In this document: positions 21,547 through 64,000 of the stretch, one piece after another | Layout: each line of letters starts with the position of its first letter | How positions within the stretch are numbered: position 1 is the stretch's first letter | Source of the DNA: Paragorgia papillata | Lineage: Eukaryota; Cnidaria; Anthozoa; Scleralcyonacea; Coralliidae | NCBI GenBank assembly: GCA_035771165.1 | Contig: JAWNZC010000102.1 | Span: 609,501-673,500 of the forward strand | Reading direction: 5' to 3' | DNA: 64,000 nucleotides | Made by a program: the position numbers and the translations under genes | Notes under the pieces: generated by a model | Database searches by the model: none | Told to the model about the DNA's origin: nothing | The model's input: the letters and a program-made list of their open reading frames with translations, nothing else

Positions 21547-21717
21547 TTAACACTTTGAGGTCTGACGACGAATCAGTATCAGTTTAGTATTTTATTCTGG
21601 CTAACGCCAGACGATTTTATTCGGGACAGGGAGAGGCCCAGGCCTCGAAGTGTTAAAACCTATCTCTTTAACACTTTGAAGCCTGAAGACGATCGAGTCT
21701 TTAGTATTTTATTCTGG
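21547..21717 (-). repeat. 113-bp repeat family, inverted units upstream of the GPCR pseudogene
   Basis: CTGGCTAACGCCAGACGATT, AGGCCTCGAAGTGTTAAAAC and TCTCTTTAACACTTTGAAGC match, in reverse complement, the units of the array at 46472-47205. The second unit ends TTTTATTCTGGC directly against the GPCR-derived sequence. Confidence 0.85.
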
Positions 21718-21983
21718 CAATTCGTGAAATGAATGTCTTGGTAGCGAACTCATCTTGCGAAGTGTGTGTTCACGACGTGTACGAACAGTGGGTGTTGGCT
21801 GTACCACTTTTTGTGGTATTAACTGGCTTTGTTGCAAATATCCTTCTCTTAATAGCACTACGAAAAGACCCTCTCAATTGCTTCCACAACACGTCAACGT
21901 ATGTCATTCAGCATATCGCCATCAACGATTGTCTTGCTCTCGTTGTTTCAAAGGTGATTATCTTCCTGACGACGAGTCTTTAG
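21718..21983 (+). pseudogene. Truncated GPCR copy (5' portion only)
   Basis: ATG at 21729 opens a frame nearly identical to the first ~78 residues of the intact GPCR at 44772-45695: an N-terminus with NSS and two Cys, TM1 ([12 protein letters not shown]), the first loop and part of TM2 (HIAINDCLALVVS). Homology extends about 10 bp 5' of the ATG (AATTCGTGA). After about residue 78 the sequence switches abruptly to a 113-bp repeat unit (CGACGAGTCTTTAGTATTTT), and the frame stops at 21983. Repeat units abut both sides, so the fragment looks captured by the repeat. Five TMs are missing and no receptor function is expected. Confidence 0.85.
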
Positions 21984-22584: not shown

Positions 22585-22802
22585 AGTGTTGATTTTACGG
22601 AGGGAGGAAAACCGCAGAACCCTGCGAAAAACCCTCGAAGCACAGGAGAGACCAACTAAACTCTACTCACATGAAATTCAAATTCGAGAATGGGGCTATC
22701 CCCAGACGGTCACCCATCCAAGTACTAACCCCGTCCAACTGGGCTTAACTACAGCGGTGAGAGGAAGCGCCCTAACAGCACACGCCACCCGTGCTTCCCG
22801 TA
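22585..22802 (-). mobile_element. 5S-rRNA-derived SINE-like repeat, copy 2
   Basis: On the minus strand the head reads like the 3' half of 5S rRNA: TTAAGCCC.., GGTTAGTACTTGGATGGGTG, ACCGTCTGGGGATAGCCCC. A body follows that contains TCTCTCCTGTGCTTCGAGGG and GGTTTTCCTCCCTCCG. Compare 24333-24672 and 43093-43340. A 5S-derived head defines SINE3-type elements (family knowledge). Confidence 0.8.
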
Positions 22803-22803
22803 T

Positions 22804-22920
22804 TCATTCAGCATATCGCCATCAACGATTGTTTTGCTCTCGTTGTTTCAAAGGTGATGATCTTCCTGACGACGAGTCTTTAGTATTTTATTCTGGCTAA
22901 CGCCAGACGATTTTATTCAG
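22804..22920 (+). pseudogene. Second GPCR-derived fragment fused to a 113-bp repeat unit
   Basis: ATTCAGCATATCGCCATCAA through TTTCAAAGGTGATGATCTTC encodes the TM2 segment [15 protein letters not shown]. It then joins a repeat unit at the same junction as the copy at 21963. The shared breakpoint shows that this chimera was itself duplicated. Confidence 0.8.
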
Positions 22921-31310: not shown

Positions 31311-31660
31311 AAGCACGCATAAATCAAGTTAATCATGCCCCGGGCTAATATATATTAGCCTGGGCCATTAAAGTGCCTATGTCAGCGTCAGGGACTTTAC
31401 ATATTTATACTAATTGGAACATTCTAAGAAGATTTGTAATATATCTTCTCAGGCGAAAATTTCATCTTCATGGATTTTTTTGCCGTTAAAGTTGACGGAA
31501 ATGACGTCAAAAGAAGAATCTGTAAAGTGGTTTTCATATAGACAAATTCCTCTTTCGACGTCACTTCCGTCAACTTTAACGGCAAAAAAATCCATGAAGA
31601 TGAAATTTTCGCCTTAGAAGATATATTACAAATCTATTCAGAATGTTCCAATTAGTATAA

Positions 31661-42300: not shown

Positions 42301-45300
42301 TTGGACGTATAGTTGTCATTGGACAACGTTTGTTTCAAAACTGAAAAACTACTAGTTATTCGCTAAACGCTTGAACGCAAATGGTAGTAATTGATTTCTT
42401 GTTTGTTTTTTTGTTGTTTTTCTTCTACAGAACAAAACATCTACAGCCCAAAGCAATAAGGCTAAAGCGGCAGGTACGTCCAGTGAAACTAATTTAAGTT
42501 TTAAGTAGTGTGATTTAAGAGGTAATGTAACGCACAGACACCCACGTTGCACGCACACTACACGCAAACAATGTTAAAAACTTCTAGGCACCACTGTAAG
42601 GTAAAGTGTCATTTAATATAAGCTAAACTGATTATTATTATAATACCATGATCGCCTCGGATTCTTTTGTTCTCCGAGGGAATGTAAACCTCGTATTTCC
42701 CTCATTGCTCATGCAAGAGGGAAATTTATCCTTTGTCTTCTAATTTTCCCGTGCATGTTGATGAGGGAAAATTAGAAGACAAAGAAATCTTTTGTCTTCT
42801 TCTAAATTTCCAGCTTGCATAGTATTTTCCCTCATCAACATGCACGGGAAAATTAGATGCAACTTCTCTGATCAACCGTGTAAATTTCCTGTCGGTAAGA
42901 TTCTCAAAGTTTTCCTCGGCGATCATAATATTACAAACTAATAACATGACTTTTCGGGAAATTAGCGATTAAATTTCCCCTTTGCCTCGGGAAGATTCTC
43001 GGCGGCGGGGAAATTTAATCGCTAGTTTCCCTCAAGTCATGTTATTACTTATAATTATTTTTATTTAAGGAGGATAAGTTTTTCAGCAGAGCTGGTGGGG
43101 TCCTCCATTTACAACTAAGACCTATAGGTGTTGATTTTACAGAGGGTGGAAAACCGGAGAACCCGGTGAAAAACACTCGAAGCACAGGAGAGACCAACTA
43201 AACTCTACTCACATGAGTCCCCACCCCGAGAACGGGGCTATTCCCAGACGGTCACCCATCCAAGTACTAACCTCGCCTAACCGGGCTTAACTATTGGTGA
43301 GAGGCAGCGCCCTAATAGCACACGCCACCCGTGCTTCCTGATGTATTGTAATCTAATGCAATGCCATGTAATGTAATGCAAATGTAATGTAATGTAATGT
43401 AAATGTAATGTAATATTAGTGGGGTGAGTGCAGTGCAGTGCAGTGTAAGGTATTGTAAACAATGTAATTCTTTGTTACAAGGTGGTGGCAATATTGGTAT
43501 TCTTCCTCCACCCCCCGGTGGCACTACGGCTCCTAAACTTGCACCACCCTCCGGAGCTGGCTCCAGTCCTGGCTCCAGTCCGGTTGCAAGTTCATCATCA
43601 TCAAACGACATGTTTCCTTCCCAGGATGCTCCGCCATCAAATGTTCCTTCTGACTGGGGTGACTTCGCAACAGCCTCGGTACCTCAACAGTAAGTAATGT
43701 TTTCTTGTTTATATATGGTTGGTTGGTTCCGTTGGTTGGTCAGTTGGTCTATCAGTCAGTTGGTCTATCAGTCAGTCAGTCAGTCAGTCAGTCAGTCAGT
43801 CAGTCAGTCAGTCAGTCAGTCAGTCAGTCAGTCAGTCAGTCAGTCAGTCAGTCAGTCAGTCAGTCAGTCAGTCAGTCAGTCAGTCAGTCAGTCAGTCAGT
43901 CAGTCAGTCAGTCGGTCGGTCAGTTGGTCAGTTGGTCGGTCGGTTGGTCAATCTGTCAGTTGGTCAGTCGGTCAGTCAGTCGGTCAGTTTGTCAGCCAGT
44001 CAGTCAGTCAGTCAGTCAGTCAGTCAGTCAGTCAGTCAGTCAGTCAGTCAGTCAGTCAGTCAGTCAGTCAGTCAGTCAGTCAGTCAGTCAGTCAGTCAGT
44101 CAGTCAGTCAGTCAGTCAGTCAGTCAGTCAGTCAGTCAGTCAGTCAGTCAGTCAGTCAGTCGGTCAGTCGGTCAGTCGGTCAGTCGGTCAGTTGGTCAGT
44201 CAGTCAGTCAGTCAGTCAGTCAGTCAGTCAGTCAGTCAGTCAGTCAGTCAGTCAGTCAGTCAGTCAGTCAGTCAGTCAGTCAGTCAGTCAGTCAGTCAGT
44301 CAGTCAGTCAGTCAGTCAGTCAGTCAGTCAGTCAGTCAGTCACTTGGCCGGTCAGTCACTTGGCCGGTCAGTCTGTTGGTCAGTCAGTCAGTCAGTTGGT
44401 CATTCGGTGGGTCAGTTGGTCGGTCAGTCAGTTGGTCGGTCAGTCAGTCAGTCAGTCAGTCACTTGGCCGGTCAGTCAGTTGGTCGGTCAGTTAATCAGT
44501 TGATCGGTCAATTAGTCGGTCGGTCGATCAGTCAGCCATTGATCAGTCGGTCGGTCGGTCCGTCGGTTCGTTCGTCCGTCAGTCACACCACTCGAACTCG
44601 TCTTGTGTCGTACTGTTTTGTTCTTTACACGCTGCGACGCCATCTGGTCTATTACAGTACAGACACACGCACGGAAAATGTAATCTATTTAAAATGTTAT
44701 GTAATATCTATGTTAAATAATAGTTGTAATATTGTCGACGATATACATGACTGATTAAAATGTCGAAGAACTTAGGCCCCGCATTGTTTACAGTATAACG
44801 TCTTAAATGTTTTTCTATACTTTGGCAAGCGCCAGATATAAAGGAAAGGGTTCAGTACGGATTGGGCCATGACTGTACACGAAAATACAGTACTGAAGAT
44901 TTTATAGGGTCGTTCGCCCATTATTCTTTCTTGATCTACATTTGGATATACCATGACACATATCGGCAACCACGCTATCATAGCAACTACACTGACAATA
45001 AGAATTGTAGTTAAAAAGCGTTTTTCATTTAACAACTTCAGCTCCAACGCTCGTCTTGTTAGATCTGCCATGTGATGTTCTTTGAAGCGTTTCTGTTGGC
45101 GTTTTATGCTTACAAAACAAGCGATATAAAAGCCAAACGCAACCACAAGAGATGGCGTGGACATTATAATTTCTACGATGTATTTGAGATTTGTACAATC
45201 TAGGTTTAAAAAGCGTAGACTCGAATCCACTCCACCAAACACGAACGATGTCAGCCAAATAGCAGCAATCCAACACCGCATTCTGCCTCGTGTAATGTAC

Positions 45301-47640
45301 ACATGATGAAGTAATGGATAAGCAACCGAAATGAACCGTTCCACTGCAAAACTCGCCAAGGCGATAAGCGACACCGATGTCACGAACAGAACAATAGACT
45401 TTATATAGATAAAATACTTCGAACCGAAGTAGAAAGGGCTGTTGTATTTGAAAGCAAGGAAGATCATCACGGATGAAACAACGAGAGCAAAACAATCGTT
45501 GATGGCGATATGCTGAATGAAATACGTTGACATGTTGTGGAAGCAATTGAGAGGGTCTCTTCGTAGTGCTATTAAGAGAAGGATATTTGCAACAAAGCCA
45601 GTTAATACCACAACAAATAGTACAGCCAACACCCACGGTTCGTACACGTCGTGAACACACGCTTCGCAAGATGAGTTCGCTACCGATACATTCATGTCAC
45701 GAATTGCGAGTTTAAAGAGCTTTAAAGTAATGACTCAATACTGTTGCCAGTCAAGGCTCTCAGTTGCGACGAGAAGTTATAACATCGCTATTCTTTAGAG
45801 GTAGCGCTTTATATATACACGCAAAGCATACTGCGAAAAAAATGATTGAACATCTGTTAACATTAATAACGTAGACCATAATTCAACATATACGAGCTTA
45901 ATGAACATTTTCGTCTTTTTATTGCTTTCATTAATATATTCTTGATTAAGATTTTTTTTTTGTCTTTTTCGATATTAAAAAATGTTCATTTAAGTTCAAC
46001 AACTGTTTTTTATTAACAATCTTTAATTAAGGTGGACCAATCGTCTGAATCGTGCGAAATTGCATTTTTCCCCGCATAAAAAGTTATATGTTTGGAGCGA
46101 GTCAGTCAGGTTTTGAACTGGTCAAACAAGTTCTAGTTTATGAACACCCGCAAGCAGGAAAATAGCAAGTAACGCGTTAGAGCCTGTATCTTGGCAACCG
46201 TTCACGCATGCTCAAAAAGAAATATCGAGCGAGGGTATGCCTTGATACACTTAGAAGTAGAAGTTTCTGGAAATCAACCAAGTCAGTTGAAAGTTAAAAA
46301 AAAACAAAAACTAAAAAGGCGCCATATCTTTTAAAAAGGTGAAATTTCAAGTTCACTGCAGGAGCAAATGCTCTTATGAAAGTTCACAAAAAAAAATTTT
46401 CTTAATGCATGTTTTATTATTTGAACTTAGAGGCACAGCGTCAGGTATTAAATTACTGCTCGATTAAAGAGATGAATAAAATCGTCTGGCGTTAGCCAGA
46501 ATAAAATACTAAAGACTCGTCTTCAGGCTTCAAAGTGTTAAAGAGATAGGTTTTAACACTTTGAGGCCTGGACCTCTCCCTGTGCTGAATAAAATCGTTT
46601 GGCATTTGCCAGAATAAAATACTAAAGACTCGTCTTCAGGCTTCAAAGTGTTAAAGAGATAGGTTTTAACACTTTGAGACCTGGACCTCTCCCTGTGCTG
46701 AATAAAATCGTTTGGCATTAGCCAGAATAAAATACTAAAGACTCGTCTTCAGGCTTCAAAGTGTTAAAGAGATAGGTTTTAACACTTTGGGACCTGGACC
46801 TATCCCTGTGCTGAATAAAATCGTTTGGCATTAGCCAGAATAAAATACTAAAGACTCGTCTTCAGGCTTCAAAGTGTTAAAAAGATAAGTTTTAACACTT
46901 TGAGGCCTGGACCTCTCCCTGTGCTGAATAAAATCGTCTGGCGTTAGCCAGAATAAAATACTAAAGACTCGTCTTCAGGCTTCAAAGTGTTAAAGAGATA
47001 GGTTTTAACACTTTGGGACCTGGACCTCTCCCTGTGCTGAATAAAATCGTTTGGCATTTGCCAGAATAAAATACTAAAGACTCGTCTTCAGGCTTCAAAG
47101 TGTTAAAGAGATAGGTTTTAACACTTTGGGACCTGGACCTATCCCTGTGCTGAATAAAATCGTCTGGCGTTAGCCAGAATAAAATACTAAAGACTCGTCG
47201 TGTTAAAAGTGTTAATAGTTTTGAAAATTATATTTGTGTGCAAAGGAAAGGAATCATATTCTTAAAACGGTAAAAGAGTAAGCCATTATATAGTGCATTT
47301 TCGTACAGACAATTTGGTCCACGTTTTTGAAGTGTGTGAAATTCACCATAATTTTAATCATCTGAACTTGAAGTCTGTAGTTTTTCCAATCGCCGATTTA
47401 TCTCGCAATGCCGTTGCCCACAAATTGGCGACATAAGTCGGCGTGTGTAACCGTAGCTTTACAAGTAAAATCGTCTGGCGTTAGAGAGTAAAAAATAAAG
47501 GAACCGTTTTTGGCCGGCTCAGGCAGGAATGGGTTAAATCCACTAATCTTTTTTTTTTCTTCCACTAATCTGTTTTTTCGCTTTTTTTTCCTTTTTCTTT
47601 TTTTAGAGCTACCCAAGACGGATCGTGGGTTCAATTTTGA
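36318..47640 (+). CDS. NECAP: NECAP (adaptin-ear-binding coat-associated protein), eight exons, complete (255 aa)
   Basis: Exons 36318-36409, 36785-36885, 38521-38625, 39397-39478, 41200-41302, 42431-42473, 43482-43689 and 47607-47640 total 768 nt and stay in frame, all with GT/AG boundaries. The product starts [20 protein letters not shown], then has the NECAP PH-like domain (residues 1 to about 135: [56 protein letters not shown]), the conserved [13 protein letters not shown], a Pro/Ser-rich linker, WGDF, and a C-terminal WVQF. WVQF is the known alpha-adaptin ear-binding motif of NECAPs. Role: accessory factor of AP-2 clathrin-mediated endocytosis. The last exon, only 34 nt, lies 3.9 kb away across an intron that holds a GPCR gene. 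Without that splice the frame ends at TAA 43691-43693 and lacks WVQF. NECAP1 and NECAP2 are a vertebrate split, so no number is assigned. Confidence 0.93.
36901..37379. mobile_element. Fold-back element in NECAP intron 2
   Basis: The ends TGAGTCAATTCCAACTGCGA and CGCAGTTGGATTTGACTCG are inverted, followed by C-run / G-run arms (CCCCGGGCAAAGCCCCGGG; GGTTTGCCCGGGG). The interior contains further CAAATGCCC / GGTCAAATTCCC palindromes. It begins 15 bp after the exon 2 donor. Confidence 0.8.
37418..37779. mobile_element. MITE family A, copy 4 (NECAP intron 2)
   Basis: CTTATTTGAAAGAACACTGA, AGTTTTTCGTTTCCTTGCTT and GCATAATGAGTTATTGAAAA at the left; a shortened right arm (GAACGAAGCAAGGAAATGAA, TCAAATAAGACAAACTTA). 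The right arm has an internal deletion relative to copies 1 and 2. Confidence 0.8.
37795..38040 (-). mobile_element. 5S-rRNA-derived SINE-like repeat, copy 4 (head truncated)
   Basis: It carries the tail (CATCCTTACTCACAGCCAAC, GATGCAGATCAACATAGCCA) and body (CCCTCGAAGCACAGGGGAGA) in the same order as 24333-24672 but inverted. It ends at CTCGACAATAGG, before the 5S-like head, consistent with 5' truncation. Confidence 0.8.
38041..38520. other. NECAP intron 2 remainder
   Basis: Contains a short duplication GTAGTTGACATGTAGCAGGT / GTAGTTGATGTACAGCAGGT at about 38297-38355. An open frame at 38037-38228 has no recognised domain. Confidence 0.4.
38626..39396. other. NECAP intron 3
   Basis: No supported gene. 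CCGGTTAACTGGGCTAGCCT (39212) and nearby inverted GGCTAGCCC/CCCGGTT pieces at 39130-39365 may be the remains of a fold-back element. Confidence 0.4.
39515..39722. mobile_element. 208-bp MITE with TA target duplication (mariner-like)
   Basis: The ends CAGTCGTTGGCACCTAAG and CTTAGGTGCCAACGACTG are perfect inverted repeats that extend further with mismatches. TA flanks both sides (39513-39514 and 39723-39724). It lies in NECAP intron 4, about 35 bp after the exon. Confidence 0.82.
39762..39833 (+). repeat. tRNA-like sequence (tRNA-Thr-like SINE head)
   Basis: TAGCGTAGTCAGTAGAGCG (box A region), an anticodon-arm-like GGACTAGTAAACC with AGT at the anticodon position, and GGGTTTGAATCCC (box B) are at tRNA spacing. 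The acceptor stem is not clearly paired, so a SINE head or pseudogene is more likely than a working tRNA. Confidence 0.55.
40035..40075 (-). ncRNA. Hammerhead-ribozyme-like motif (well-conserved core)
   Basis: On the minus strand CTGATGA (40068-40062) is followed by A, the helix GGCC-TGA-GGCC and GAAA (40049-40046). This is the canonical hammerhead core order CUGANGA, helix II, GAAA. The flank GCTTAGC could form the very short helix III typical of Penelope-like element ribozymes. Helix I partners are not obvious. Confidence 0.55.
40076..40655. other. NECAP intron 4, TAACGCCAGA-type repeat and unassigned sequence
   Basis: TTTTACTCTGTCTAACGCCA at about 40498 belongs to the short dispersed repeat. 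Nothing else is recognised. Confidence 0.45.
40656..41091. mobile_element. hAT-type MITE with perfect 8-bp target duplication
   Basis: It starts CAGTGATGGATT and ends GATCCATCACTG. It is flanked by the identical octamer TTCTGTCT at 40648-40655 and 41092-41099. Inside, GGGGTGCGCACCCCCC and GGCCCTTGGCC are local palindromes. At 436 bp it has no transposase frame. It ends about 100 bp before NECAP exon 5. Confidence 0.85.
41451..42391. repeat. Inverted repeat pair bracketing ~800 bp (NECAP intron 5)
   Basis: ACCATTTGCGTTCAAGCGTT and CAAACGTTGTCCAATGACAA (41451-41505) return in reverse complement at 42314-42390 (TTGTCATTGGACAACGTTTG, AACGCTTGAACGCAAATGGT). A direct repeat CATCCGGAGGAAGGTT / CACCCGGAGGAAGGTT lies between them. 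Possible transposon ends; no target duplication identified. Confidence 0.6.
42474..42640. other. Start of NECAP intron 6
   Basis: Short unassigned segment preceding the fold-back region. Confidence 0.4.
42641..43045. repeat. Two adjacent fold-back structures
   Basis: Around 42720-42865, TTTGTCTTCTAATTTTCCCG and TGCATGTTGATGAGGG face CCCTCATCAACATGCACGGG. At 42943-43043, AATAACATGACTT..GGGAAATTAGCGATTAAATT faces AATTTAATCGCTAGTTTCCC..AAGTCATGTTATT. Confidence 0.75.
43093..43340 (-). mobile_element. 5S-rRNA-derived SINE-like repeat, copy 5
   Basis: Complete head and body on the minus strand. The 5S-like head at 43233-43295 contains CAGACGGTCACCCATCCAAG and TACTAACCTCGCCTAACCGG on the plus strand (complement of GGTTAGTACTTGGATGGGTG). 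The body has ACTCGAAGCACAGGAGAGAC. It lies in NECAP intron 6. Confidence 0.85.
43345..43440 (+). repeat. ATGTA/ATGCA pentanucleotide repeat
   Basis: Imperfect AATGT units at the 3' side of the SINE-like copy, then GTGCA units. May have served as the SINE insertion site or tail. Confidence 0.85.
43745..44580 (+). repeat. (CAGT)n tetranucleotide tract in NECAP intron 7
   Basis: About 830 bp of CAGT repeats, pure in long blocks and interspersed with CGGT, TGGT and CACTTGGCCGGT variants toward the 3' end. It begins about 55 bp after the NECAP exon 7 donor. All long frames here are artefacts (SVSQ repeats). Confidence 0.97.
44772..45695 (-). CDS. Rhodopsin-class (class A) GPCR, single exon, 307 aa, nested in a NECAP intron
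   Basis: Complete frame from ATG (45695) to TAA (44772). N-glycosylation sites N2 and N7 and two Cys lie in the short N-terminus. TM1 has GFVAN (N37 in the conserved TM1 Asn position), TM2 has the conserved Asp (AINDC, D67), TM3 ends ERF (119-121) instead of DRY, TM6 has AWLP (W242) and TM7 has NPFLY (from N282). The tail is short and ends with Cys residues in YCKQC that could be palmitoylated. The TM3-top Cys usually paired with extracellular loop 2 is not evident. The ligand is unknown; it looks like a lineage-specific orphan receptor. The gene lies antisense inside NECAP intron 7. Truncated copies lie at 21718-21983 and 22804-22920. Confidence 0.93.
   Translation of the reverse strand: MNVSVANSSCEACVHDVYEPWVLAVLFVVVLTGFVANILLLIALRRDPLNCFHNMSTYFIQHIAINDCFALVVSSVMIFLAFKYNSPFYFGSKYFIYIKSIVLFVTSVSLIALASFAVERFISVAYPLLHHVYITRGRMRCWIAAIWLTSFVFGGVDSSLRFLNLDCTNLKYIVEIIMSTPSLVVAFGFYIACFVSIKRQQKRFKEHHMADLTRRALELKLLNEKRFLTTILIVSVVAMIAWLPICVMVYPNVDQERIMGERPYKIFSTVFSCTVMAQSVLNPFLYIWRLPKYRKTFKTLYCKQCGA
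45806..45817 (-). promoter_or_regulatory. Candidate TATA box of the nested GPCR
   Basis: On the minus strand TATATATAAAGC lies about 115 bp upstream of the GPCR start codon. Position and sequence fit a TATA box, but no transcription start is known. Confidence 0.4.
45818..46471. other. GPCR upstream region within NECAP intron 7
   Basis: No gene or clear repeat. The sequence near 46025 (TTAATTAAGGTGGACCAATC) superficially resembles element ends but has no partner. Confidence 0.4.
46472..47205 (+). repeat. 113-bp satellite array, ~6.5 units
   Basis: CTGAATAAAATCGT recurs at 46585, 46698, 46811, 46924, 47037 and 47150, exactly 113 bp apart each time. Each unit contains two palindromes: CTGGCGTTAGCCAG, and a hairpin of TTCAAAGTGTTAAAGA..TTTTAACACTTTGAGG. 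Units differ by a few substitutions (TCTGGCG/TTTGGCA, TTAGCC/TTTGCC). Related units lie at 21547-22052, 22867-22920 and 53530-53966. Confidence 0.95.
47206..47606. other. NECAP intron 7 distal part
   Basis: It has a TAACGCCAGA-type repeat remnant near 47465-47485 and a strong T-rich tract (47548-47604) that serves as the polypyrimidine tract before the last NECAP exon. Confidence 0.5.
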
Positions 47641-53529: not shown

Positions 53530-53966
53530 ATAATTTCCTTAACATTTTGAGGCCTAGACCTCTCCCTGTGCTGAATAAAATTGTCTGGCATTAGCCAGAA
53601 TATTAACCTTAAAGACTCGTCGTCAGGCTTTAAAGTGTTAAAGAGATAGGTTTTGACACTTTGAGGTCTGGACCTCTCCCTGTGCTGAATAAAATCATCT
53701 GGTGTTAGCCAGAATAAACGTTAAAGACTCGCTGTCAGGCTGCAAAGTGTTAAAGAGATAGGTTTTAACACTTTGAGGCCTGGACCTGATCTCCCTGTGC
53801 TGAATAAAATCATTTGGTGTTAGCCAGAATAAACATTAAAGACTCATCATCAAGCTTTAAAGTATTAACACTTTGAACCCTGAAGACGAGTCTTTAGTAT
53901 TTTATTCTGGCTAACGCCAGACGATTTTATTCAGCACAGGGAGAGGTCCAGGCCTCAAAGTGTTAA
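53530..53966 (+). repeat. 113-bp repeat family, three direct units plus one inverted unit
   Basis: TGCTGAATAAAATTGTCTGG, AGCCAGAATATT, AAAGTGTTAAAGAGATAGGT and TTTTAACACTTTGAGGCCTG recur at about 115-bp steps to 53860. A final unit from about 53868 reads in the opposite orientation (CTGGCTAACGCCAGACGATT, AGGTCCAGGCCTCAAAGTGT). Confidence 0.88.
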
Positions 53967-54439
53967 ATATATTTTAAATTTTGGGCATCCACAGCCATTA
54001 ACTTCCTTTTATTGATTTTTTTATTTTATTAGCTTTGCCAGTTACACATTACAATTACAAACATAATTATACAGAATGAAAACAGTTTTGGCAGGCATTA
54101 TACCACAACAGCAAAAGCCAATTACTGCGTGCCCCTTTCATTCTAGGGTGTCCCACTGGATGCCCTTCTGGCCAAATTAGTCTGCCTAATAATATCTACA
54201 ACTGTATAAATTAAACTAAATTTTTTTGGCCTCACTGTTTTGTCACATACATGTATATTTGGTGGTTTAATTTTTTTGCATTGGATTTGAGGGTGCTGTG
54301 TTCTGACTTCTGATCGACTACCATTTTAGAGTACATGTATCAGATCAGATTGGGGTTGACTGGAGTCAATTTGTGAAATTATATGAATCTCAATTATTTT
54401 TATGTAGTTTATTTTATTTTCTACATTTGCAGCTAAAAT
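53967..54439 (+). other. Upstream region of the receptor tyrosine kinase gene
   Basis: AT-rich, no recognised core promoter. TTTGCAGCTAAA just before the start codon could also be read as a splice acceptor for a 5'UTR exon. Confidence 0.35.
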
Positions 54440-57400
54440 ATGCTTGGAAGGGATATACTTGGAAAATCTGGGTCTCTCTTATCATTCATTTTTCTCATAT
54501 TATTATGTGTGTACACAAGAGCTGAAGAAGGTAAAGTGTTGAAAACACTGTTTGTTTGGTCCAGTTGTTGTAAAAATAGAGTTATAGAGTCAAAAATAGT
54601 TTGATGACTTTAAAGCTGCAGGGGCATGGCGAAGGAATCATGATTTTTTTTTTTGGGGGGGGGGGGGGGTGTATGATAATGACCAACTTTTTGCACAGAT
54701 AATATAGTGTAAAAAATGCGAGAATTGATCGAAAAACTTGTAATGTATAAACAGGTATTTAGAAGCTGTGCAAAATAAGAGAAGATAAGAGTGTCAGAAA
54801 CATTTTATTTTTATGGAAACAATCAAAAGTCACTGAAATTCTGAAAGTGTTCTGAACGTTAATCTAAAAGTAACTGAATAAAGCAGAAAACATGTTTAAC
54901 AATTAGGTGGTAATCAGCAGCAGCAATTCCTCATTTGACCAATTCCTCGTTTGACCAACTATTTGATATTTAGAATTACGTGTATTGGGTGGTGTTGCAC
55001 CCACACAGTAGTTGCCATGCCAGCTGCTGAGCTGGTCAAAACCACCCCTTAATTGTTTTACTCTGTTTACAGTTGGTTTCAGGTTACTTTTGATGGAAAT
55101 GTTCAGAAGTTCGTTTGGAACCTCCAAATGAACTTCTGAACATTTTCATCAAAAGTAACCTGAAACTGACTGTGAATTGCCAGGCAGTTTTAATTGTCAA
55201 AGGGGGAACCTTCAGACATCCATAAGCAGCAACAACCTTGTACCCAGGGTCTTATCTCCGCTCCCCCACCCCCGCAAGCAGCAATGGATTAACAAGTGAT
55301 TAACACCACCTTTAATGGGTTAAAAAGAGAGATAGACATGCAGATAGTCCTGTCAATCCTGTGATTTGACATCTGTGGACTCACCAATTTGTAAAATTCT
55401 CTGGTGATTTAGCCAGAGTGAAATATAAAAAGAGCCAAATTTGGCTGACTCAGCACATGTAGAAACTGCAAAAGTTTGTTGTTAAATAGTTTCAACTGCC
55501 ACAATTTTTTTTACTTTTATATTTTAGAATCCAAAAATTCTGGGACCTGTAAAGATTTATATGAGGTTGCTCCTGCTGAAAAAGGCAGTTCTGGGGTAAA
55601 ACATATACCTAATATTATAACTTATTTTTGCGAGACTTTATTTTGTGATTTTTGCAACTAATAATAATAATAATAGAAACTTTAATCAAACTCACTGAAT
55701 AGAATACAATAAAAAAGACAAGTTACAAATATACATTACAAACAACAAATTAAGTGTTAAGTGAGTTGGATAAGGGGCTAGCGAATGGACTCCAAGTCCA
55801 GCTAGCTAATTAGGTGGTAAGTTATTCCTAAGCCGAACAATGCGATTAAAAAAAGAGTCTCCGAACAATGATGTACAAAAACGGTGAATTGGACGGAAAA
55901 AATGTGAAACTAAAAAAATGTGAAAATTAAAGTCCCAGAAAAAAATCCTTAAATATGCACCATTATTATATGGCAGCAGCGCTGAGAGGTCCGAATACGG
56001 AAATCCTGTAATTTGATTGGTTCATTAGCGGTTGGATATTTCCCGTATCCGCCCGCTCAGAGTGGAATCTGCCGTTCGGGACCGTAAGTTAATTTTATAA
56101 ACAAAATGGCAGTCATGTCAGTATATCGGAAACAAGATGGATTATAATTTCAGAACTACTCATTGTTGAAATATATCATGCAGGTATGTTGTTAGAAATT
56201 TTATAAGCTTTCATTTGATGTATAGTTCGAGTTTCCACGTTTTGTGAAAGTTTTTAAAATGTCCAAAACGTTTGTAACATTGTTCGTATTTACTTCTCAC
56301 AAGTATTAGAATTCCAGATGATTTTTTATTCAAACTACTTAACAGACGATCTTGAGCAATATGTCAAACAAAAGCAATTGAAAATTACTATTTGGGGTAG
56401 AAAGTTCAGGATTCTAGCTCAACGGCGGAAAATACTTTAAAAATGGGAAAATGTCTGCCATTTTCGTTTAGTTTAGTATTGACCTAGCTTGTTCGGTCTG
56501 TACCAGGGTGCATTCCATGTCAACCCCACGCCGAAGATAAGCCACTGGTGTTCAGGTGCTGTGCCAAGGGAGGTCAAGACGAATGCCGGCGCCGGCACCA
56601 CCCACTGACTTGTAATTAGTTGTATGGCTATATATATATGCACTGACCGCAGTGTGATTGTGCACCAGCACGCCGAGCACTTTTGAAACTCACGCCGAAG
56701 ATTTTCGGCATGACGTACATGGAATGCACCCTGAGGTCTGTACTAGTGAAATATCAGACCTCTGTTTTTTGCACAGACCTCAACTCGCTGCGCTCGTCTC
56801 GGTCCGTACTAAAAAAAACATCGGTCCGATATTTCACTGGTACAGACCTCACGCTCGGTCAATAAGTAGTTATTATTGCCTAAACAACTTATCAGACTCA
56901 TAAACTGATACTCTTGACTCCTGTACTTACATGGTCATGTAAACACCCAAAATAGCCTTCAGGTCTACCTTTGTTTTAGAATATACTTTTTGTCATGTTT
57001 TTTCTTTATATTCTACCATGGATAGTAAAAAGACTTTTAAAAAGTCTTTCAGAAACTCATTAATAATTCATGAGGAAAATTCAAAAGAAATTAAAGTTTA
57101 ATCAGTGTCTTTATATGTGATAAAGATACCTCCTGATTTACATAAACTTTAGCTTTGATTTTCTTGGATTAGACAAGGTTATTTTTCAAACTTACTACAC
57201 CAATGAACTTTGACTTAAAGTGGTTCGTTTTTGAAGCCGTTCAATAAACTCGCAGTTCGTGTTTTATCAGATATAAAAACACTCGGCTTCGCCTTGTGTC
57301 TTATATCTGATAAAACACTCCTGCTCGTTTATTAAACAGTACTTTCACAATCCATGATTCTACTGAATGGATTTTGTAATCTAAATTCCTCTAATTTTTC

Positions 57401-60400
57401 TAGTGGAATGGAGCTGATCACGTAGGATTGACGTGTTCTTATTGCAATTCACGCCGAGACGCTATGAAATCGTGGTTAGTTATCAAGCCGACTAGCAGTC
57501 TCAAAAGTGGCCAGAAAGCAAATGTTAAAATTGTGGCTCAGACTTCACACTGTACAGGCTGTAAGAACTTTCACCTGAAAGTGTATGTTCTTTATGGACC
57601 ACTTGAAGCAGACGTTATGAAACAGCAAGCACAACTGAACAACTTAACATCATTTATAAGCACATTTAAAAATGACAAGATAGACGTACCGCAAGCACAT
57701 TACATGCAATATGTGTCTAAGTCTGGTGAATCTCGGCTTGTTTTCCTTGCGGAAGGTGGATGTTTTGTCATTTACACTATTGAAATATCAACATTTTTCT
57801 GCAAGAAAGACATTGTTAATGGTGTTAGCTTACCAAACCTTGACTCCCTAGCCAACAGATCACAAAGAGTTAATTACAGTTGCCCAGGGAACAGTCAGCC
57901 ATCTCATAATGAAGTGTTCGGATTATGTACGAGTAATGGTACATGGGAGGTGAAAGAGTCGTGCTTATGCTTTAAAGGATCTTATTTGAAAGAAAATGAT
58001 GGTTGCCAGGGTAAGTTACTGTAAATAGCTAGTAACTTATTTTTACTATTTTACTTTACATGTGTTGTTGGTGTTGTCTGTTGATGGTGGTGGTGTTGCT
58101 GTCGTTATCGTCGTTGTTGTTGTCGTTGTTGTCGTCGTCGTTATCGTCGTTGCTGCCGTTGCCGTCGTGGTTGCCGTTGTCGTTATTCTTGCTGTCCTTG
58201 TTGTCGTCGTCGTTGCTGCGGTTGTCATTCTCGTCGTTGCTGCCGTTGTCATTATCGTCGTTGTTGTCGTGTTTGCTGCGGTTGTTGTCGTCGTTGCTGC
58301 CGTCGTCATTGTTGTCGTCGTTGCTGGCCTGTTGTCGTCGTCGTCGTTGCTGCGGCTGTCATCGTCGTTGCTGCCTCGTTGTCGTCGTCGTCATTGCTGC
58401 CCGTTGTCATCGTTGCTGCCGTTGTCGTCGTTGCTGTCGTCGTCGTTGCTGTCATTGTTGTCGTCGTTGCTGTCGTTGTTGTCGTCGTTGCTGCGGTTGT
58501 CGTCGTCGTTGCTGTCGTTGTTGTCGTCGTTGCTGCCGTTGTCGTTGCGCTATCATTATTCTGTTTTCTTATACATATATGGTAAAGTGCAAAATTCATT
58601 TTAGGTTGCCCAGAAAATACCTCCAAGGATTATATCGGAAACGATGATTGCAAATCCTGTCCTACAAAGTCCAAAAGTGCAAAAGGGCAACTTAGTTGCA
58701 GTTGTGAAAGCGGCTACTACAGATTTCTTGGGGATAATCACACACATGCTTGTCACGGTAAGTAATATTTAAATACTCTTTAATAATTATTCATGGCAAG
58801 AAACAAAAGAATAGGTCTTAATTAGTATGCTGTAAATCGAATACAACATCGTCCAAGTTTGCATAAACTTTTCCTTCGATTTACTCAGCTAAAATGGCTT
58901 GAATCAAAATATTTTTACCAAAATAATTGGTAATAGTTCATTCAATCACCTGATTGAAGTTGAATCCCTCCGCGAGAGGGACCCGCCCCAGTCCTCTACA
59001 CTACTACAAGTATGGTCGTCGTCAGCCGTCACGTCCGTCGTATCTTAAGGCTTATTAGATGAAAACTGGTGTTCATCTAATTCCTAAAATCTCAATTATC
59101 TATGCAAGATAGACAAGTTGGTGTATGAATAAATTTTACGCACGCTTGTGTATAGAATCTCATGAGGATTTATTTTAATTGTATTTTCCAATTGAAATCG
59201 CTCGATTGAGATGCCATATCAACATCTCGTTTATGGTGTTTCATCAGGGGAATTCAAACACTCGAAAACCATAAAACCACTCAGCCTTCAGCCTTGTGTT
59301 TTTTATCATGTTTCCTCGTGTTTGGATCGCGTGATGAGACATTCTCAAACTCATTAATAATTCATGAATTATCATAGCCAATCCTTGAACGTATACCACA
59401 TCACATGCATGAGTTTTGATACCCAATGAAAACCTGTAGGAAACTTCCTAGTGAACTGAATCACATTTCTTAATCTGCATATTTAAATCAATGAAGAAAA
59501 CACCGCAAATCACAATGCGAATACTCGTTTGAGAAGCAAGATCAAACACTCGTTTATCATGTTTCATCAGGGGACTTCAAACACGTGAAAACAAATGAAA
59601 GCCTCTGCGCTATGCCCTCGTCCCAACCCACAACCCCCCGGAAACCCTAAACCCAACCACAACCCCCCGGTGACCCTAAACCTAACCACAAGCCTCCGGG
59701 GGGAGTGTCCCGCCTCTCAGACCCCGACTACTGAGGTTATTTGTTATATGCTTTTTAGTATCCCGCATGTGGGCAGAGAATTACCTAGAATTACTTATTA
59801 TTGGAAATTGAAGGCCATAGGACACTTTAGGAGGACATGTTGTGACGCTATATGCCTTTTATTTCCGAAGCCTAGTCTATCGCCAGGATATCTCACAAAA
59901 TACTGCCAAGATTTTCATGAAAGTTTGTGGAAAGATTGATAATAGACCAAGGACCAACCCATTACATTTTGGTTAAATTTGGTTGAAATTTGGATGAGAA
60001 ATTAATAAAATCTGACCACAAGATTCTCCGTGTAAGCATTTTATTCATACATACATGTGTAGGACTCGTGAGCTAGCCTGGTTAGTGGAATGACTCGTTT
60101 TCTTTTTAAACATCTCTAACAACCCTCTTGTTTACATATAGGTATTCCTTCATCTGTTACAAAAGTGCAATTTGATGATAAAACTACAACCTCTGTGCAT
60201 ATAAGGTGGCAACGTCCGATATTTAGAGGTGGTTCTGACGTTTTTTACGAAATCAGATGCTTCAAATGTGAAGGCGATAACTGTAAAATTAAATGTAGAG
60301 ATGCGACGACATTTCTACCCGCGAAAGACTACCTGACTTATTCAAGTGTGATTGTGAAGAACTTGGAGCCAGATACGGAATATGTGTTTGTTATCTATTC

Positions 60401-63400
60401 CAAAAATCTCAACAATCTTCGCATAGATGAAACAAAATGGAAGCGCTTTAACAAGAAGATTGACACTAAAGGTAATTATAACATAGGGGTGTTTACATGA
60501 GGCCGGTCCAAACTCAGGCCGGACTGATTTCGGGTCGGTTGTAGTGTTTTTACTATCGATTCGTTTTCATGAGTCTGACCTGAGATTCAGTTCACGCCGA
60601 CCTAATCTCAGGTCGCCTGCTAAACCGAACCGAAATTTTGAGGCCAGCCTAACTCCAGGCCGGCTTTCCATGTAAACAAAATCCATTAGTCAAATTCGGA
60701 GTACGAAAAAAAAGCTTTTTAACGGACGTAATAGGAACCAAGGCCATATAATTTCTAGACCAGCCTCACGTAAACAAAAACCAAAATGCAAAATTCAGTC
60801 CGGCCTGAGTTTGGGCCAGCCTCACGTGAACACCCCCGTAGATGTGTGATAACGGTGTTTCTGATTGGCTACCTTGCGTGCTCCATAACTCGACGGAGCA
60901 CGGCAATTTTAAACGTAATGAGAAACTCATTTTTAATCAGCGAAATAAATATTGTTTTTCGTTGTTTTGCGTCTGATTCTCTGTTATAAAAGAAATGGTT
61001 CATGGTTTGGCGTGCTCCATTGAGTTATGGATGCACTTGGGAAGTTGGAGAGCACTCAGAAATCTCTCGGCTGTCGCCTCGACCAACTCTTACGCTTTTT
61101 TCGTGCTCTCCGAACCGCGTGCATCCATGACTCGATGGAGCACGCCAAACCATGAACCATTTCTTAAATATAATATATAATATAATGTAATGTAATGTAA
61201 TGTAATGTAATGTAATGTAATGTAATGTAACGTAATGTATAATATATAATAATATATATGAGATGTAGTGGTCACATCCTCCTCCAAATATATGCTAATT
61301 ATATTATCCAACTTTTATCGAATCCGCTGTAAAATAAAGAATTCTTCCTATAAAATGAAAACCCTCCGCAACAAAGCGTCTAAAAATGTACTGCGCAAAT
61401 ACTTGTTTCTGCGTGGCAAATCTAATTTAAAAATAAATTGAAACCGGTTTTTTTAGCCCCTACTGAACGGCTGAATGAGACAACTGACTCAGACTACACT
61501 ACAATTCTGGCCGTTGCTATATCCATTGCAGTAGTTGCTTTATTGCTTGGCATCTTAATCAGTATATTCTGGAAATGGAGAAAGAACCAAAACAAGAAAG
61601 AATCTACTTTTGCGGTAAATGACTTTGTTTCTTTATATTACATGTATATGGCAGCGGCGCGGGGATAAGATGTCCGACTAAAATGCACATAGTGAAATAA
61701 AAGTAACGTGCTGCGTAGGCAGTGTAGAAACAACAATCGAAATATACTAACTTAGGTTAGATATACTGCCGAAACAGAGAACGTAGGAATCTAACGTTTC
61801 GAGCGAAGGCCCTTCGTCAGAGAGAAACGTGGGCCTTCGCTCGAAACGTTAGATTCCTACGTTCTCTGTTTCGGCAGTATATCTAACCTAAGTTACTATA
61901 TTTAAAATGCACATAGTCCTGCTCTTAATTATTTAGGTCTTAATTATTTATAAAAATTTAGGTTTGATTATATAGTGTTATTTTATTGTAAAAATAGTTA
62001 TAGTACAACTGTTTTAACATTGATTTAGTTTAAATCGTGGCATACCTGAAAAGTGGCGTTAACGCTAAGTGTACTCGACCATGTTAAATAAAGTGTATTG
62101 TATTGTATTGTATTGTATTAAAAATTGTTTGCTGTTTAGGTTGAACTGCAAGGCATGCCTGAGGGCGAAATCGACCCGATTTACGCTGAAGTGGATCCCC
62201 CAAGAGCCAATGATATTTCAAGTATCTTAGCCTTGTTTCAAGACGTACAGCGTTCAGACGAGGTTTTTTTGGGAATTTCCAAGAAAACGCCTCACAATTC
62301 TACGAAAACTAGGAGAAGGAAACTTTGGCACGGTCAACAAAGCCAAATGGACACCCATACATGCAATCACTGGCGAAAAAGGAGGAATTGTTGCTGTCAA
62401 GATGCTCAAAGGTAGATCTAACGTAAATTTAGAAAATGTTAAAGTCGTATATCATGCTCTGACCCACTTCAGACACGAAACTCCTCAGTCTATCTTGTGT
62501 GAGCCAGCCTCAAACGGACGCTTTATGTATTTTACTCTGAAGCTGTCTGATGCCAGACTATTTAAAGAGAGAACCCGCAGATATCCTAGGCAAGTCCAAA
62601 GCCCACTTATTAATTTAATCAGTCTATAACGCCAGACAGACATCCTAGGCAGCACTGAGTTAAAAAGTCATTAACCCATTCTAGCCTGAGCTGCATGACC
62701 AAGAGTGGTATACCTTTGATTATTTCACTCTGTCTAACGCAAGACGATTTAGTGAGTTGTGAGTTTGTAAAAAGTCTAAGGAAAAGATTTAATAGGTATA
62801 TTTTTCTCTCTATAGAGAACGCTTCTCTCAAAGATGAAAGAGATTTTATGAGTGAACTTAATCTGATGAAGAAGTTGGAGCCTCATCCTCATGTTGTGCA
62901 ACTGTTGGGTTGTTGTACAAATTCAGGTACAATATAGTATAGAGAGCTTTCATTTGACTAAGAGTGTGTTTTTATAGAGAAAGCTAGCCCTCCTAAGAGC
63001 GCTAGTACTAGTAAGAAGGTTGGATTTCACCTTGCGTTGACATGGAAATTTTCTAGACCTTCATGCACATGCGTATACAATAGTTCTTTTCCTAAAAAGG
63101 GCATTCTTCTTGAGCGTCGTTTACATAGAAAACTTCCATGGCCAACCCTCTTGAGTGTCGTTCATATGGAAAACGTCCATCCCTCCTAGAAGAGACAGCC
63201 CTATATTAAACGTCATTAAACCCACCTTACAACATCTCTCTTGAAATTTAGAACCGTTTTTTCTTATTTTGGAATATCTGGTTGGAGGAGACCTTCTGGG
63301 GTATCTACGAAAATCTCGAGGCTACAAAGATCCGTACAACACTGGAGAATATGTTCCGACATCAAGACTACGAGAGAAAGATCTGTTATCTTTTGCCTGG

Positions 63401-63439
63401 ATGATTTCCGATGGCATGAATTACTTATCGTCAGAAGGG
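54440..63439 (+). CDS. Receptor tyrosine kinase with Eph-like ectodomain, nine exons seen, 3' end outside window
   Basis: Exons 54440-54530, 55528-55595, 57404-58010, 58605-58757, 60142-60471, 61457-61614, 62140-62411, 62816-62926 and 63252-63439 have GT/AG boundaries and matching phases, apart from a one-base excess in exon 7. Predicted order: signal peptide (1 to ~27, SLLSFIFLILLCVYTRA), ephrin-receptor ligand-binding-like domain (~35-215; LVFLAEGGCFVIYTIEI and FFCKK match the Eph hallmark), Cys-rich EGF/GCC-like modules (~230-306), one fibronectin III domain (~308-410), TM (~432-455), a juxtamembrane DPIYAEV tyrosine, then kinase N-lobe with LGEGNFGTV, VAVKMLK (K556) and ERDFMSELNLM (E573), and DLLSFAWMISDGMNYL. 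The catalytic loop and everything after it lie beyond the window. The kinase half looks more RET/FGFR-like than Eph-like, and only one FN3 is seen where Eph has two. Numbering assumes the frameshift is corrected. Confidence 0.9.
55067..55168. repeat. Hairpin in RTK intron 1
   Basis: CAGTTGGTTTCAGGTTACTT, TTGATGGAAATGTTCAGAAG and TTC are mirrored by GAACTTCTGAACATTTTCAT, CAAAAGTAACCTGAAACTGA. Arms are about 45 bp with a very short loop. Confidence 0.85.
55660..55935 (-). mobile_element. LINE 3'-end fragment with (ATT)n tail
   Basis: On the minus strand the sequence ends in an (ATT)n run (plus strand TAATAATAATAATAATAG at 55660-55676). Upstream it encodes a decayed C-terminus of the LINE type (SLFGDSFFNRIVRLRNNLP). 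It is 5'-truncated and lies inside RTK intron 2. Confidence 0.6.
55936..56478. other. RTK intron 2, unassigned part
   Basis: No exon or element recognised. Confidence 0.35.
56479..56862. mobile_element. Fold-back element family F1, copy 3, carrying a nested element
   Basis: Outer ends TTGACCTAGCTTGTTCGGTC and CAGACCTCACGCTCGGTCAA match the other F1 copies. GAAATATCAGACC / GGTCCGATATTTC are the inner arms. It is interrupted at 56504-56733 by a different element. Confidence 0.75.
56504..56733. mobile_element. Nested MITE with 9-bp flanking duplication
   Basis: The termini CAGGGTGCATTCCATGT and ACATGGAATGCACCCTG are perfect inverted repeats. The flanks carry GGTCTGTAC at 56495-56503 and 56735-56743, a 9-bp duplication of the host element (one extra A at the right junction). 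CACGCCGAAGAT is repeated internally near both ends. Duplication length suggests a Mutator-like or hAT-like origin. Confidence 0.75.
57050..57340 (+). repeat. Repeat family B, uninterrupted copy (empty site)
   Basis: AAACTCATTAATAATTCATG to ATCAGATATAAAAACACTC matches 16880-17560 without the 394-bp MITE. The site reads TTGGATTAGACAAGG, with a single TTA. Confidence 0.78.
58064..58555 (+). repeat. GTC/GTT/GCT trinucleotide-rich tract in RTK intron 3
   Basis: Imperfect GTTGTCGTC and GTTGCTGCC units cover almost the whole 594-bp intron between 58011 and 58604. Frames of poly-Val, poly-Leu/Ser, Arg/Cys and poly-Thr are repeat artefacts. Confidence 0.95.
58770..59610. repeat. RTK intron 4: decayed family B copy and repeats shared with 25.1-25.8 kb
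   Basis: 58770-58950 resembles family B (TTTAATAATTATTCATGG, GTAAATCGAATACAACATCG). 59230-59600 contains GTTTCATCAGGGGAATTCAA, AACTCATTAATAATTCATGA, AGGAAACTTCCTAGTGAACT and GAGAAGCAAGATCAAACACT, the inverse of 25500-25740. Confidence 0.6.
59627..59700 (+). repeat. Three tandem copies of a ~27-29-bp C-rich unit
   Basis: CCACAACCCCCCGG followed by AAACCCTAAACC / TGACCCTAAACC recurs three times. The CCCTAAACC core is reminiscent of telomere-like repeats, but the period is not six or seven. Confidence 0.7.
60485..60836. mobile_element. MITE with GGGGTGTTTAC ends, ~352 bp (RTK intron 5)
   Basis: The left end GGGGTGTTTACATGAGGCCG, GTCCAAACTCAGGCCGG faces the right end CCGGCCTGAGTTTGGGCCAG, CCTCACGTGAACACCCC. 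Internal CAGGTCGGCGTG-like blocks are also inverted. It starts about 14 bp after the FN3 exon donor. Confidence 0.82.
60993..61164. mobile_element. Fold-back MITE, ~170 bp (RTK intron 5)
   Basis: AAATGGTTCATGGTTTGGCG, TGCTCCATTGAGTTATGGAT at the left; ATCCATGACTCGATGGAGCA, CGCCAAACCATGAACCATTT at the right. Confidence 0.85.
61184..61240 (+). repeat. (TAATG)n pentanucleotide repeat
   Basis: About ten TGTAA units, flanked by TATAATATAATA. Confidence 0.93.
61685..61918 (-). mobile_element. Palindromic repeat with hammerhead-like core (Penelope-like remnant)
   Basis: GATATACTGCCGAAACAGAG through AACGTTTCGAGCGAAGGCCC is mirrored by GGGCCTTCGCTCGAAACGTT through TATATC. On the minus strand CTGACGA (61820-61814) is followed by a helix GGGC-CTTC-GCTC and GAAA (61800-61797), the hammerhead core order. 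A decayed relative flanks the element pair at 3750-4480. Confidence 0.55.
61990..62117 (+). mobile_element. Retroelement 3' end with TGTAT tail
   Basis: TTAAATAAAGTGTATTGTAT followed by further TTGTAT units looks like a polyA-signal-plus-short-tandem tail of a non-LTR element or SINE. It ends about 20 bp before RTK exon 7. The body is not recognised. Confidence 0.45.
62264..62270 (+). other. T7 homopolymer causing an apparent frameshift in RTK exon 7
   Basis: Read as given, the frame after DEVF leaves the kinase and ends in a stop at 62413-62415. With six T instead of seven, the frame gives a WEFPRKRL motif, typical just before RTK kinase domains, and runs into LGEGNFG. The splice phase into exon 8 is then also correct (271 instead of 272 nt). 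Either a sequencing/assembly indel or a real disabling mutation. Confidence 0.88.
62485..62780. repeat. TAACGCCAGA-type dispersed repeats in RTK intron 7
   Basis: TATTTTACTCTGAAGCTGTC near 62529, TCTATAACGCCAGACAGAC near 62625 and TCACTCTGTCTAACGCAAGA near 62725 are three diverged copies between exons 7 and 8. Confidence 0.6.
62940..63240. repeat. Degenerate repeat related to 6641-7180 (RTK intron 8)
   Basis: TTGAGCGTCGTTTACATAGA, AAACTTCCATGGCCAACCCT and GAGTGTCGTTCATATGGAAA are the inverse of the units at 6800-7030. Confidence 0.6.
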
Positions 63440-63761
63440 GTAAACTTTTATGCACCTTTCTTGCAATTCACTCTGTTTTTAAATTTGAATTTGAAAACAA
63501 TAAAAATCACCCGGCTTGCAACCTCGTGATTTTCATTATTCTTTCATTTTTTACAAACACTCGAGAACAATGAAAATTACTCGGTTAACGGCCTCGTGAT
63601 TTTCATTGTCCTCTCGTGTTTGTAACCCCGGGTAAAACACTCCCGCTCGTTTATGAAATATTACATAATATGCTAGTCTGTTTTCGATGAAGTAGCCATT
63701 ACCGCCCAGAAAAAAATGGTATACTTTGAATCATTCTATTCTATTTTAACTTTTTATTTAA
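63440..63761. repeat. Fold-back-like sequence in the RTK intron after exon 9
   Basis: AAACAATAAAAATCACCCGG .. CTCGTGATTTTCATTATTCT and AACAATGAAAATTACTCGG .. CTCGTGATTTTCATTGTCCT are two related palindromic units in tandem, ending near TTTATGAAATATTAC. Confidence 0.55.
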
Positions 63762-64000
63762 ATCCAATTCTAATTCTAACTCCAATTCCAATGCCATTTC
63801 TAATTCCAATTCCAATTCTAATTCTAATTCTAACTCCAATTCTAATTCTAACTCCAATTCCAATTCCATTTCCAATTCCTTTTCCATTTCCAATTCCAAT
63901 TCCAATTCTAATTCTAATTCTAACTCCAATTATAATTCTAACTCCAATTCCATTTCCATTTCCAATTCCAATTCCAATTCCATTTCTAACTCCAATTCCA
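63762..64000 (+). repeat. AATTCY/AACTCC hexanucleotide repeat to window end
   Basis: Imperfect AATTCC, AATTCT, AACTCC and CATTTCC hexamers. The ELELEL frame on the minus strand is a repeat artefact. The tract continues past the window. Confidence 0.95.

Follow-up and report, generated by a model that had tools for sequence, protein, structure and literature searches.

The window analysed here is a 64,000-nucleotide stretch of DNA of the anthozoan Paragorgia papillata (GenBank assembly GCA_035771165.1, contig JAWNZC010000102.1, positions 609,501 to 673,500 of the forward strand), and all positions are counted from its first base. A receptor gene occupies positions 54440–63439 on the + strand. 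Translation of the region 53800–64000 and splicing at GT/AG sites gave nine exons on this strand, separated by introns of 325–1808 bp, all eight of which are GT/AG. The gene probably encodes one chimeric receptor, in which an Eph-type ectodomain is carried by a RET/FGFR-like kinase with a long insert, likely to bind ephrins and to signal in the manner of a growth-factor receptor.

Exon 1 (54440–54530, donor GTAAAG) contained the start codon and, by hydropathy, a signal peptide that is hydrophobic from residue 5. Exon 2 (55528–55595, 68 nt), delimited by its splice sites, corresponded to the N-terminal edge of the ligand-binding region. The large exon 3 (57404–58010, 607 nt) was assigned by profile and predicted fold to an Eph-type ligand-binding domain followed by the start of the cysteine-rich region. 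Exon 4 (58605–58757, 153 nt) carries an Ephrin_rec_like/EGF-like cysteine-rich module, recognized from its splice sites, a sub-threshold Pfam match and phmmer. Exon 5 (60142–60471, 330 nt) encodes a single FN3 domain that Pfam and phmmer identified as collinear with the first FN3 of Eph receptors. Exons 4 and 5 are both in phase 1-1, and symmetric exons of this kind are a classic signature of shuffling. The succession of sizes, 68, 607, 153 and 330 nt, is one that we take to be like that of vertebrate Eph exons 2–5. Exon 6 (61457–61614), defined by splice sites and hydropathy, contains the stalk and the transmembrane helix, with the top 19-residue hydropathy window beginning at residue 433. 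The kinase starts in exon 7 with the glycine loop (GEGNFG) and VAVK. Splice sites and the kinase alignment placed the segment from helix C to the gatekeeper region in exon 8 (62816–62926). In exon 9 (63252–63439), splice sites and the measurement of the segment described below revealed the hinge, helix alphaD, the long insert between helices alphaD and alphaE (D-E insert, GDLLGYLRKSRG...) and the start of alphaE. Of the kinase, the window contains the N-lobe and the hinge, as far as the beginning of alphaE; the 3' half falls beyond its end. The order proposed in the original prediction from the same DNA, with nine + strand exons running from signal peptide through Eph-like ectodomain, cysteine-rich module, FN3 and transmembrane segment to the kinase start, was thus recovered.

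The prediction had also called these exons phase-consistent, and this depends on the acceptor chosen for exon 7. With an acceptor before 62231, exon 7 (62231–62411) continues the frame of exon 6 into exon 8, and the nine exons form a single open frame of 629 codons, with no stop. With an acceptor before 62140, the additional segment 62140–62230, which is intronic in the first model, gives a juxtamembrane reading ending in ...QRSDEV. This resembles the ...KRSDDAFWEFP of P0002, a protein of the coral Dendronephthya gigantea, and the description does not hold for this model: at 62264–62270, a run of seven T, juxtamembrane and kinase frames fall out of register by one base. Homopolymers are places where sequencing errors cluster, and the break could possibly be such an error, a trace of alternative splicing or the mark of a pseudogene. 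The last case, in which a once working chimera would be decaying at this locus, draws on the P0002-like reading that lies one base off the kinase frame. It appears improbable, as this is the sole break observed across approximately 1.98 kb of coding sequence, is situated within a homopolymer, and is avoided by three in-frame acceptors (62231 and two others nearby) in a gene whose introns are all GT/AG. Mini-introns within exon 7 bridging the T-run were also considered, and rejected: the longest of the 15 candidates measures 118 bp, well short of the introns of the gene. A shifted acceptor is the simpler explanation.

Two repeats were observed around the gene. In the intron between the transmembrane and kinase exons, positions 61740–61903 form a near-perfect inverted repeat (73-nt arms, 99% identity, 18-nt spacer), probably a foldback transposon-like insertion. 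Tandem repeats of 112–115 bp are present at 46473–47199 and 53539–53868, with units that seem related by eye, and the second array ends approximately 570 bp upstream of the receptor start codon.

The ectodomain

A phmmer search of the PDB with the ectodomain aligned residues 158–395 collinearly with EphB2 (E 3e-23), followed by EphA4, EphB6 and EphA2, with the titin FN3 matches far below. In the productive homologue search, 1020 of the 7995 candidates scored met the threshold of E 0.001, and the listing comprised 120 of them. Among these 120, three matched the window ectodomain at E < 0.01. P0001 of the octocoral D. gigantea (826 aa, labelled "Tie-1-like isoform X2") is 35% identical over 424 aa; P0003 of Pocillopora meandrina (795 aa, unnamed) 28% over 151 aa; and P0004 of Stylophora pistillata (776 aa, "ephrin type-A receptor 4-A-like") 23% over 239 aa. 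A profile, A1, made of these three ectodomains and that of the window gene matched 38 sequences in the PDB, 37 of them Eph receptors (E 3e-55), the matches being collinear across ligand-binding domain, cysteine-rich region and first FN3. In a six-row ectodomain tree with very long branches, the window gene and P0001 were sisters (100/99). Two other homologue searches were given no weight: the 511-residue N-terminal piece returned nothing at E <= 0.001, and the A1 alignment returned nothing at 1e-5, not even P0001, although its N-terminal part is included in A1. A blastn search of exon 3 against plasmid records, also without a match, has little bearing.

In the spliced protein, Pfam detected one fn3 above threshold (E 5e-8) and Ephrin_rec_like below it (15.2 against 23.1 bits). 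No second FN3 was found by Pfam in any of the three frames of the intron following the FN3 exon (60472–61456), where one might have been missed, and the single FN3 of the prediction stands; nor did Pfam find cadherin or Ig domains in the ectodomain. Ephrin_lbd matched neither the spliced protein nor exon 3 searched by itself, and did not match P0001 either. The window ligand-binding domain is therefore divergent and ephrin binding is not assured.

The fold of exon 3 was predicted with AlphaFold2 from an alignment including the three relatives (mean predicted local distance difference test score, pLDDT, 69.5). In the structure comparison of this model, Eph entries occupied ranks 1–27 (best E 2e-10, TM-score 0.61 by query length), and the 50 rows listed comprised 45 Eph entries and five of meprin alpha. 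For P0001, the model of the complete protein had a mean pLDDT of only 49 and was set aside as poor. These results bear on the possibility that the chimera is real and that its ectodomain no longer binds ephrins, having turned to another ligand, whether secreted, located in the matrix or made by a symbiont. The missing Ephrin_lbd matches in the window protein and P0001, when P0003 and P0004 have them, would agree with such a change, as would the stretch between the conserved cysteines, which is shorter than in EphB2 when read from the alignments. Against it, the cysteines and the tryptophan of the ligand-binding domain are invariant in all four chimeras, and the predicted fold matches Eph. We consider a change of ligand rather unlikely, but it deserves serious attention.

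The kinase and its coral relatives

The kinase part matched Pfam PK_Tyr_Ser-Thr (E 2e-31), and its best phmmer matches in the PDB were RET (5e-31) and FGFR2 (4e-27). A maximum-likelihood tree of 35 rows was built from the window kinase, 26 of the 120 listed homologues (our choice, made for spread, omitting 94) and eight human kinases. The window kinase grouped with P0002 (100/98), a 412-aa isoform lacking an ectodomain, which is its nearest kinase (72% identity over 145 aa) and possesses HRD and DFG, and then with P0004 (99/95). A wider clade of ten rows (89/97) contained in addition P0003, P0005, P0006, P0007, P0009, P0010 and P0012; it consists of the window kinase, eight named coral proteins and P0005, for which no source is named. 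According to Pfam, the ectodomains within this clade are of Eph type in P0003 and P0004, Ig in P0006, Ig and SEA in P0009, and Ig and fn3 in P0010 and P0012 (precomputed for these two), with none in P0002, P0005 and P0007. A branch with support 98/95 separated a receptor group of 31 rows, window included, from Eph, Src and Abl.

The segment from alphaD to alphaE was measured with a text pattern that extends into both helices and caught 28 of the 35 rows. It covers 40 residues in the window kinase and 40–42 in P0001, P0003 and P0004, compared to 26 in EphA2 and EphB2, 27 in Src and Abl, and 41 in FGFR1 and TIE2. The accessible text of PMC8662651 separates long-DE from short-DE kinase clades, with Eph in the short-DE clade and most other receptor kinases in the long-DE clade. 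By its long insert and its place in the tree, the window kinase is a long-DE receptor tyrosine kinase. The further long-DE marks given there, a methionine of the activation loop and a phase-2 intron at alphaH, are located beyond the window end.

Within this class, orthology to RET, FGFR, Tie or Cad96Ca was examined and rejected, since those clades do not include the window kinase, which stands with P0002 and P0004. The four RET-type rows formed their own clade (99/97) and so did three FGFR rows (100/99), the FGFR-like-named P0032 and P0043 falling elsewhere. With RET, its best match among solved structures, the window kinase has in common the WEFPRK start and the DL-SFAW-IS segment; RET carries cadherin repeats (PF00028 in P0028 and P0029), unlike the window protein. 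FGFR is similar in kinase class and D-E length and differs by its Ig domains, in place of which the window protein has an Eph ectodomain.

Alternatively, the gene might encode a true Eph receptor, either basal or evolving fast, with a kinase of its own that only resembles the RET/FGFR type and with the second FN3 lost. The collinear ectodomain fits this view, and so does the variation in FN3 number, sometimes with absence of SAM, described for cnidarian Eph receptors in the accessible part of PMC6485061. The kinase argues strongly against it. Grouping of the window kinase with human EphA2/EphB2 was rejected by the approximately unbiased (AU) test (p 0.0002), and again in a control restricted to the 129 columns common to the window and EphA2, from which the D-E insert was excluded (p 0.0025). 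This control omitted four rows, namely P0001 and TRKA (both long), P0032 (divergent) and P0046 (identical to P0043 there). When P0002 and P0004 were joined to the window and human Eph, rejection persisted (p 0.0005 in the full alignment, 0.008 in the control). Over the 129 columns, the window kinase is 29–31% identical to human Eph kinases, 49–50% to RET and 69% to P0002, and human EphA2 and EphB2 have no long D-E insert. A true Eph receptor thus appears very unlikely. The original prediction had offered two readings of its RET/FGFR-like kinase with an insert, a domain-shuffled receptor or a basal relative older than the Eph kinase. The Eph-type ectodomain, the single FN3 and the RET/FGFR-class kinase support the former; the latter is not supported, given the exclusion from the human Eph clade and the position of the kinase among long-insert receptors, beside coral receptors with Ig and SEA ectodomains.

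The relatives extend the pairing beyond Paragorgia. P0001 has the same ectodomain plan, with a single FN3, and a kinase on a long branch, whose nearest neighbour in the tree was human TIE2 (87/84). P0004 combines Pfam Ephrin_lbd and one fn3 with a kinase of the window clade, and differs by its shortened cysteine-rich region and its low ectodomain identity. In P0003, an Eph ligand-binding domain (Pfam Ephrin_lbd) and a cysteine-rich region precede a long-insert kinase that groups with the Ig/SEA-bearing coral receptors. No Pfam SAM domain was found in any of the three. Three coral gene models, two complete and that of P0003 partial, therefore unite both halves in a single predicted protein, and the chimera looks like a lineage common to soft and stony corals and not a mis-joined gene model. 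The contrary view, that an Eph-like ectodomain gene and an adjoining kinase gene were read as one, can point to the joining of exons from genomic DNA and to the frequency of gene-model fusions in draft genomes. It conflicts with the presence of both halves in one protein in other genomes, with the single open frame given by the 62231 acceptor, and with the distance between the transmembrane and kinase exons, which lie on the same strand only 525 bp (acceptor 62140) or 616 bp (acceptor 62231) apart. We regard two separate genes as most improbable.

The chimeras did not form a single kinase clade. Placing the window, P0001, P0003 and P0004 together with P0002 was rejected (AU p 0.0002), and so was, after removal of P0001, the grouping of P0003 with the window, P0002 and P0004 (p 0.005). 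This suggests that ectodomains and kinases were exchanged repeatedly. A position of P0001 beside the window kinase was not rejected (AU p 0.084 and 0.064), so that the main evidence for several kinase lineages is that of the tests with p 0.005 and 0.0002. The ensemble looks like a coral receptor group in which swappable ectodomains (Eph, Ig, SEA) are mounted on related kinases. The database names of P0001–P0004 (Tie-1-like, Cad96Ca-like, ephrin type-A receptor 4-A-like) mask this group.

Other features of the window

Four other features were identified in the window, three of them on the + strand. An open frame of 455 codons at 1420–2787 had no Pfam match at E 0.01. A SKI/SNO-type gene at 12413–14680 is a single open frame with the Ski_Sno_DHD and c-SKI Smad4-binding domains of Pfam. 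The retrotransposon frame at 31656–34289 (878 aa) contains a reverse transcriptase above the Pfam threshold and endonuclease domains just below it. On the – strand, 44772–45734 is an open frame for a rhodopsin-type G-protein-coupled receptor (Pfam 7tm_1). Fragments on the other strand, at 21708–21967 and 22799–22867 (+), are 93% and 94% identical to it and represent an incomplete duplicate.

Proposed receptor and its significance

We infer that Eph front-end exons were joined to a pre-existing coral receptor kinase, at the level of exons since the cysteine-rich and FN3 exons are in symmetric phase 1-1. In the model that we propose, the predicted ectodomain would dock on membrane-bound ephrins of a neighbouring cell at contacts and cluster there. 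Activation of the kinase would follow from trans-phosphorylation driven by dimers or clusters. The long D-E insert and the YxN tyrosines seen in the C-tails of relatives may then recruit adaptors leading to Ras/MAPK and PI3K. Growth-factor-type rather than Eph-type output would be expected, because the receptor has no Eph kinase and its relatives have no SAM domain.

Several points weigh against this chimeric, ephrin-binding receptor, in addition to the frame of exon 7, the divergent ligand-binding domain and the unrejected placement of P0001 already described. The presence of ectodomain and kinase exons in one mature transcript is predicted from genomic DNA alone. HRD, DFG and the C-terminus lie beyond the window, and kinase activity and SAM absence are taken from the relatives, among them P0003, whose gene model is partial and lacks a Pfam FN3. 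The YxN motif, of Grb2 type, occurs in the C-tails of all ten proteins examined (P0001 to P0007, P0009, P0010 and P0012) and equally in three of three bilaterian controls; it is unspecific and at most suggestive. In the kinase tree, the window occupies 45% of the columns, the Eph kinases are all human, with no cnidarian one, and no branch sets Src and Abl together apart from the other rows; the 129-column control no longer unites the coral rows in one clade. Finally, an alternative to repeated gain is that the ten-row clade had one Eph-type ancestor and that ectodomains were lost later.

The window protein shares with Eph receptors the order of ligand-binding domain, cysteine-rich region and first FN3, followed by a transmembrane helix and a tyrosine kinase. 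It differs in its kinase and in having one FN3 instead of two, a weak criterion alone since FN3 number varies (PMC6485061, accessible part). Eph receptors end in SAM and a PDZ-binding motif, which correspond here to a 3' end outside the window. In its accessible text, the 2019 survey PMC6485061 counts 85 cnidarian proteins with an Eph ligand-binding domain, 17 of them full-length, and reports architectural variation only in FN3 number, in the length of the cysteine-rich region and in SAM absence. It describes two anthozoan-specific kinase clades against one ligand-binding-domain clade, in kinase trees rooted on non-metazoan receptor tyrosine kinases; a design of this kind, as described, would not reveal a RET/FGFR-type kinase. 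The same text presents ephrins as membrane-bound and expanded in cnidarians. The accessible part of PMC6993872 states that Eph architecture is unchanged within Metazoa, essentially as PMC6485061 holds for animals. According to the accessible part of PMC6208414, the family of ephrin-like receptors is expanded in Acropora digitifera; no domain detail is given there. The original prediction had put the gene forward as undescribed. This holds for the pairing of an Eph ectodomain with a RET/FGFR-class kinase, which is not described in the accessible text of the two Eph surveys among open-access literature, whose supplements may list such sequences as Eph; the gene itself is no singleton, its relatives being present in public databases.

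It is possible, and proposed here only tentatively, that anthozoans repeatedly placed the Eph ectodomain on non-Eph kinases, creating a second class of ephrin receptors that would couple cell contact to Ras/MAPK and PI3K, and that this class corresponds to one of the two "Eph kinase" clades described in 2019 as specific to anthozoans. Such a lineage could help to explain why cnidarians show one ligand-binding-domain clade and several kinase clades. A bacterial coral symbiont encodes ephrin-like ligands, which its authors propose to bind coral Eph receptors (PMC4781883, accessible part); the coral chimeras are further candidate targets of these ligands, as a lead only. The finding also corrects misleading database labels. 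An Eph front end on a long-DE kinase would show that ephrin input is separable from Eph output, and these receptors would offer natural chimeras with which to ask which half of a receptor sets the response of the cell.

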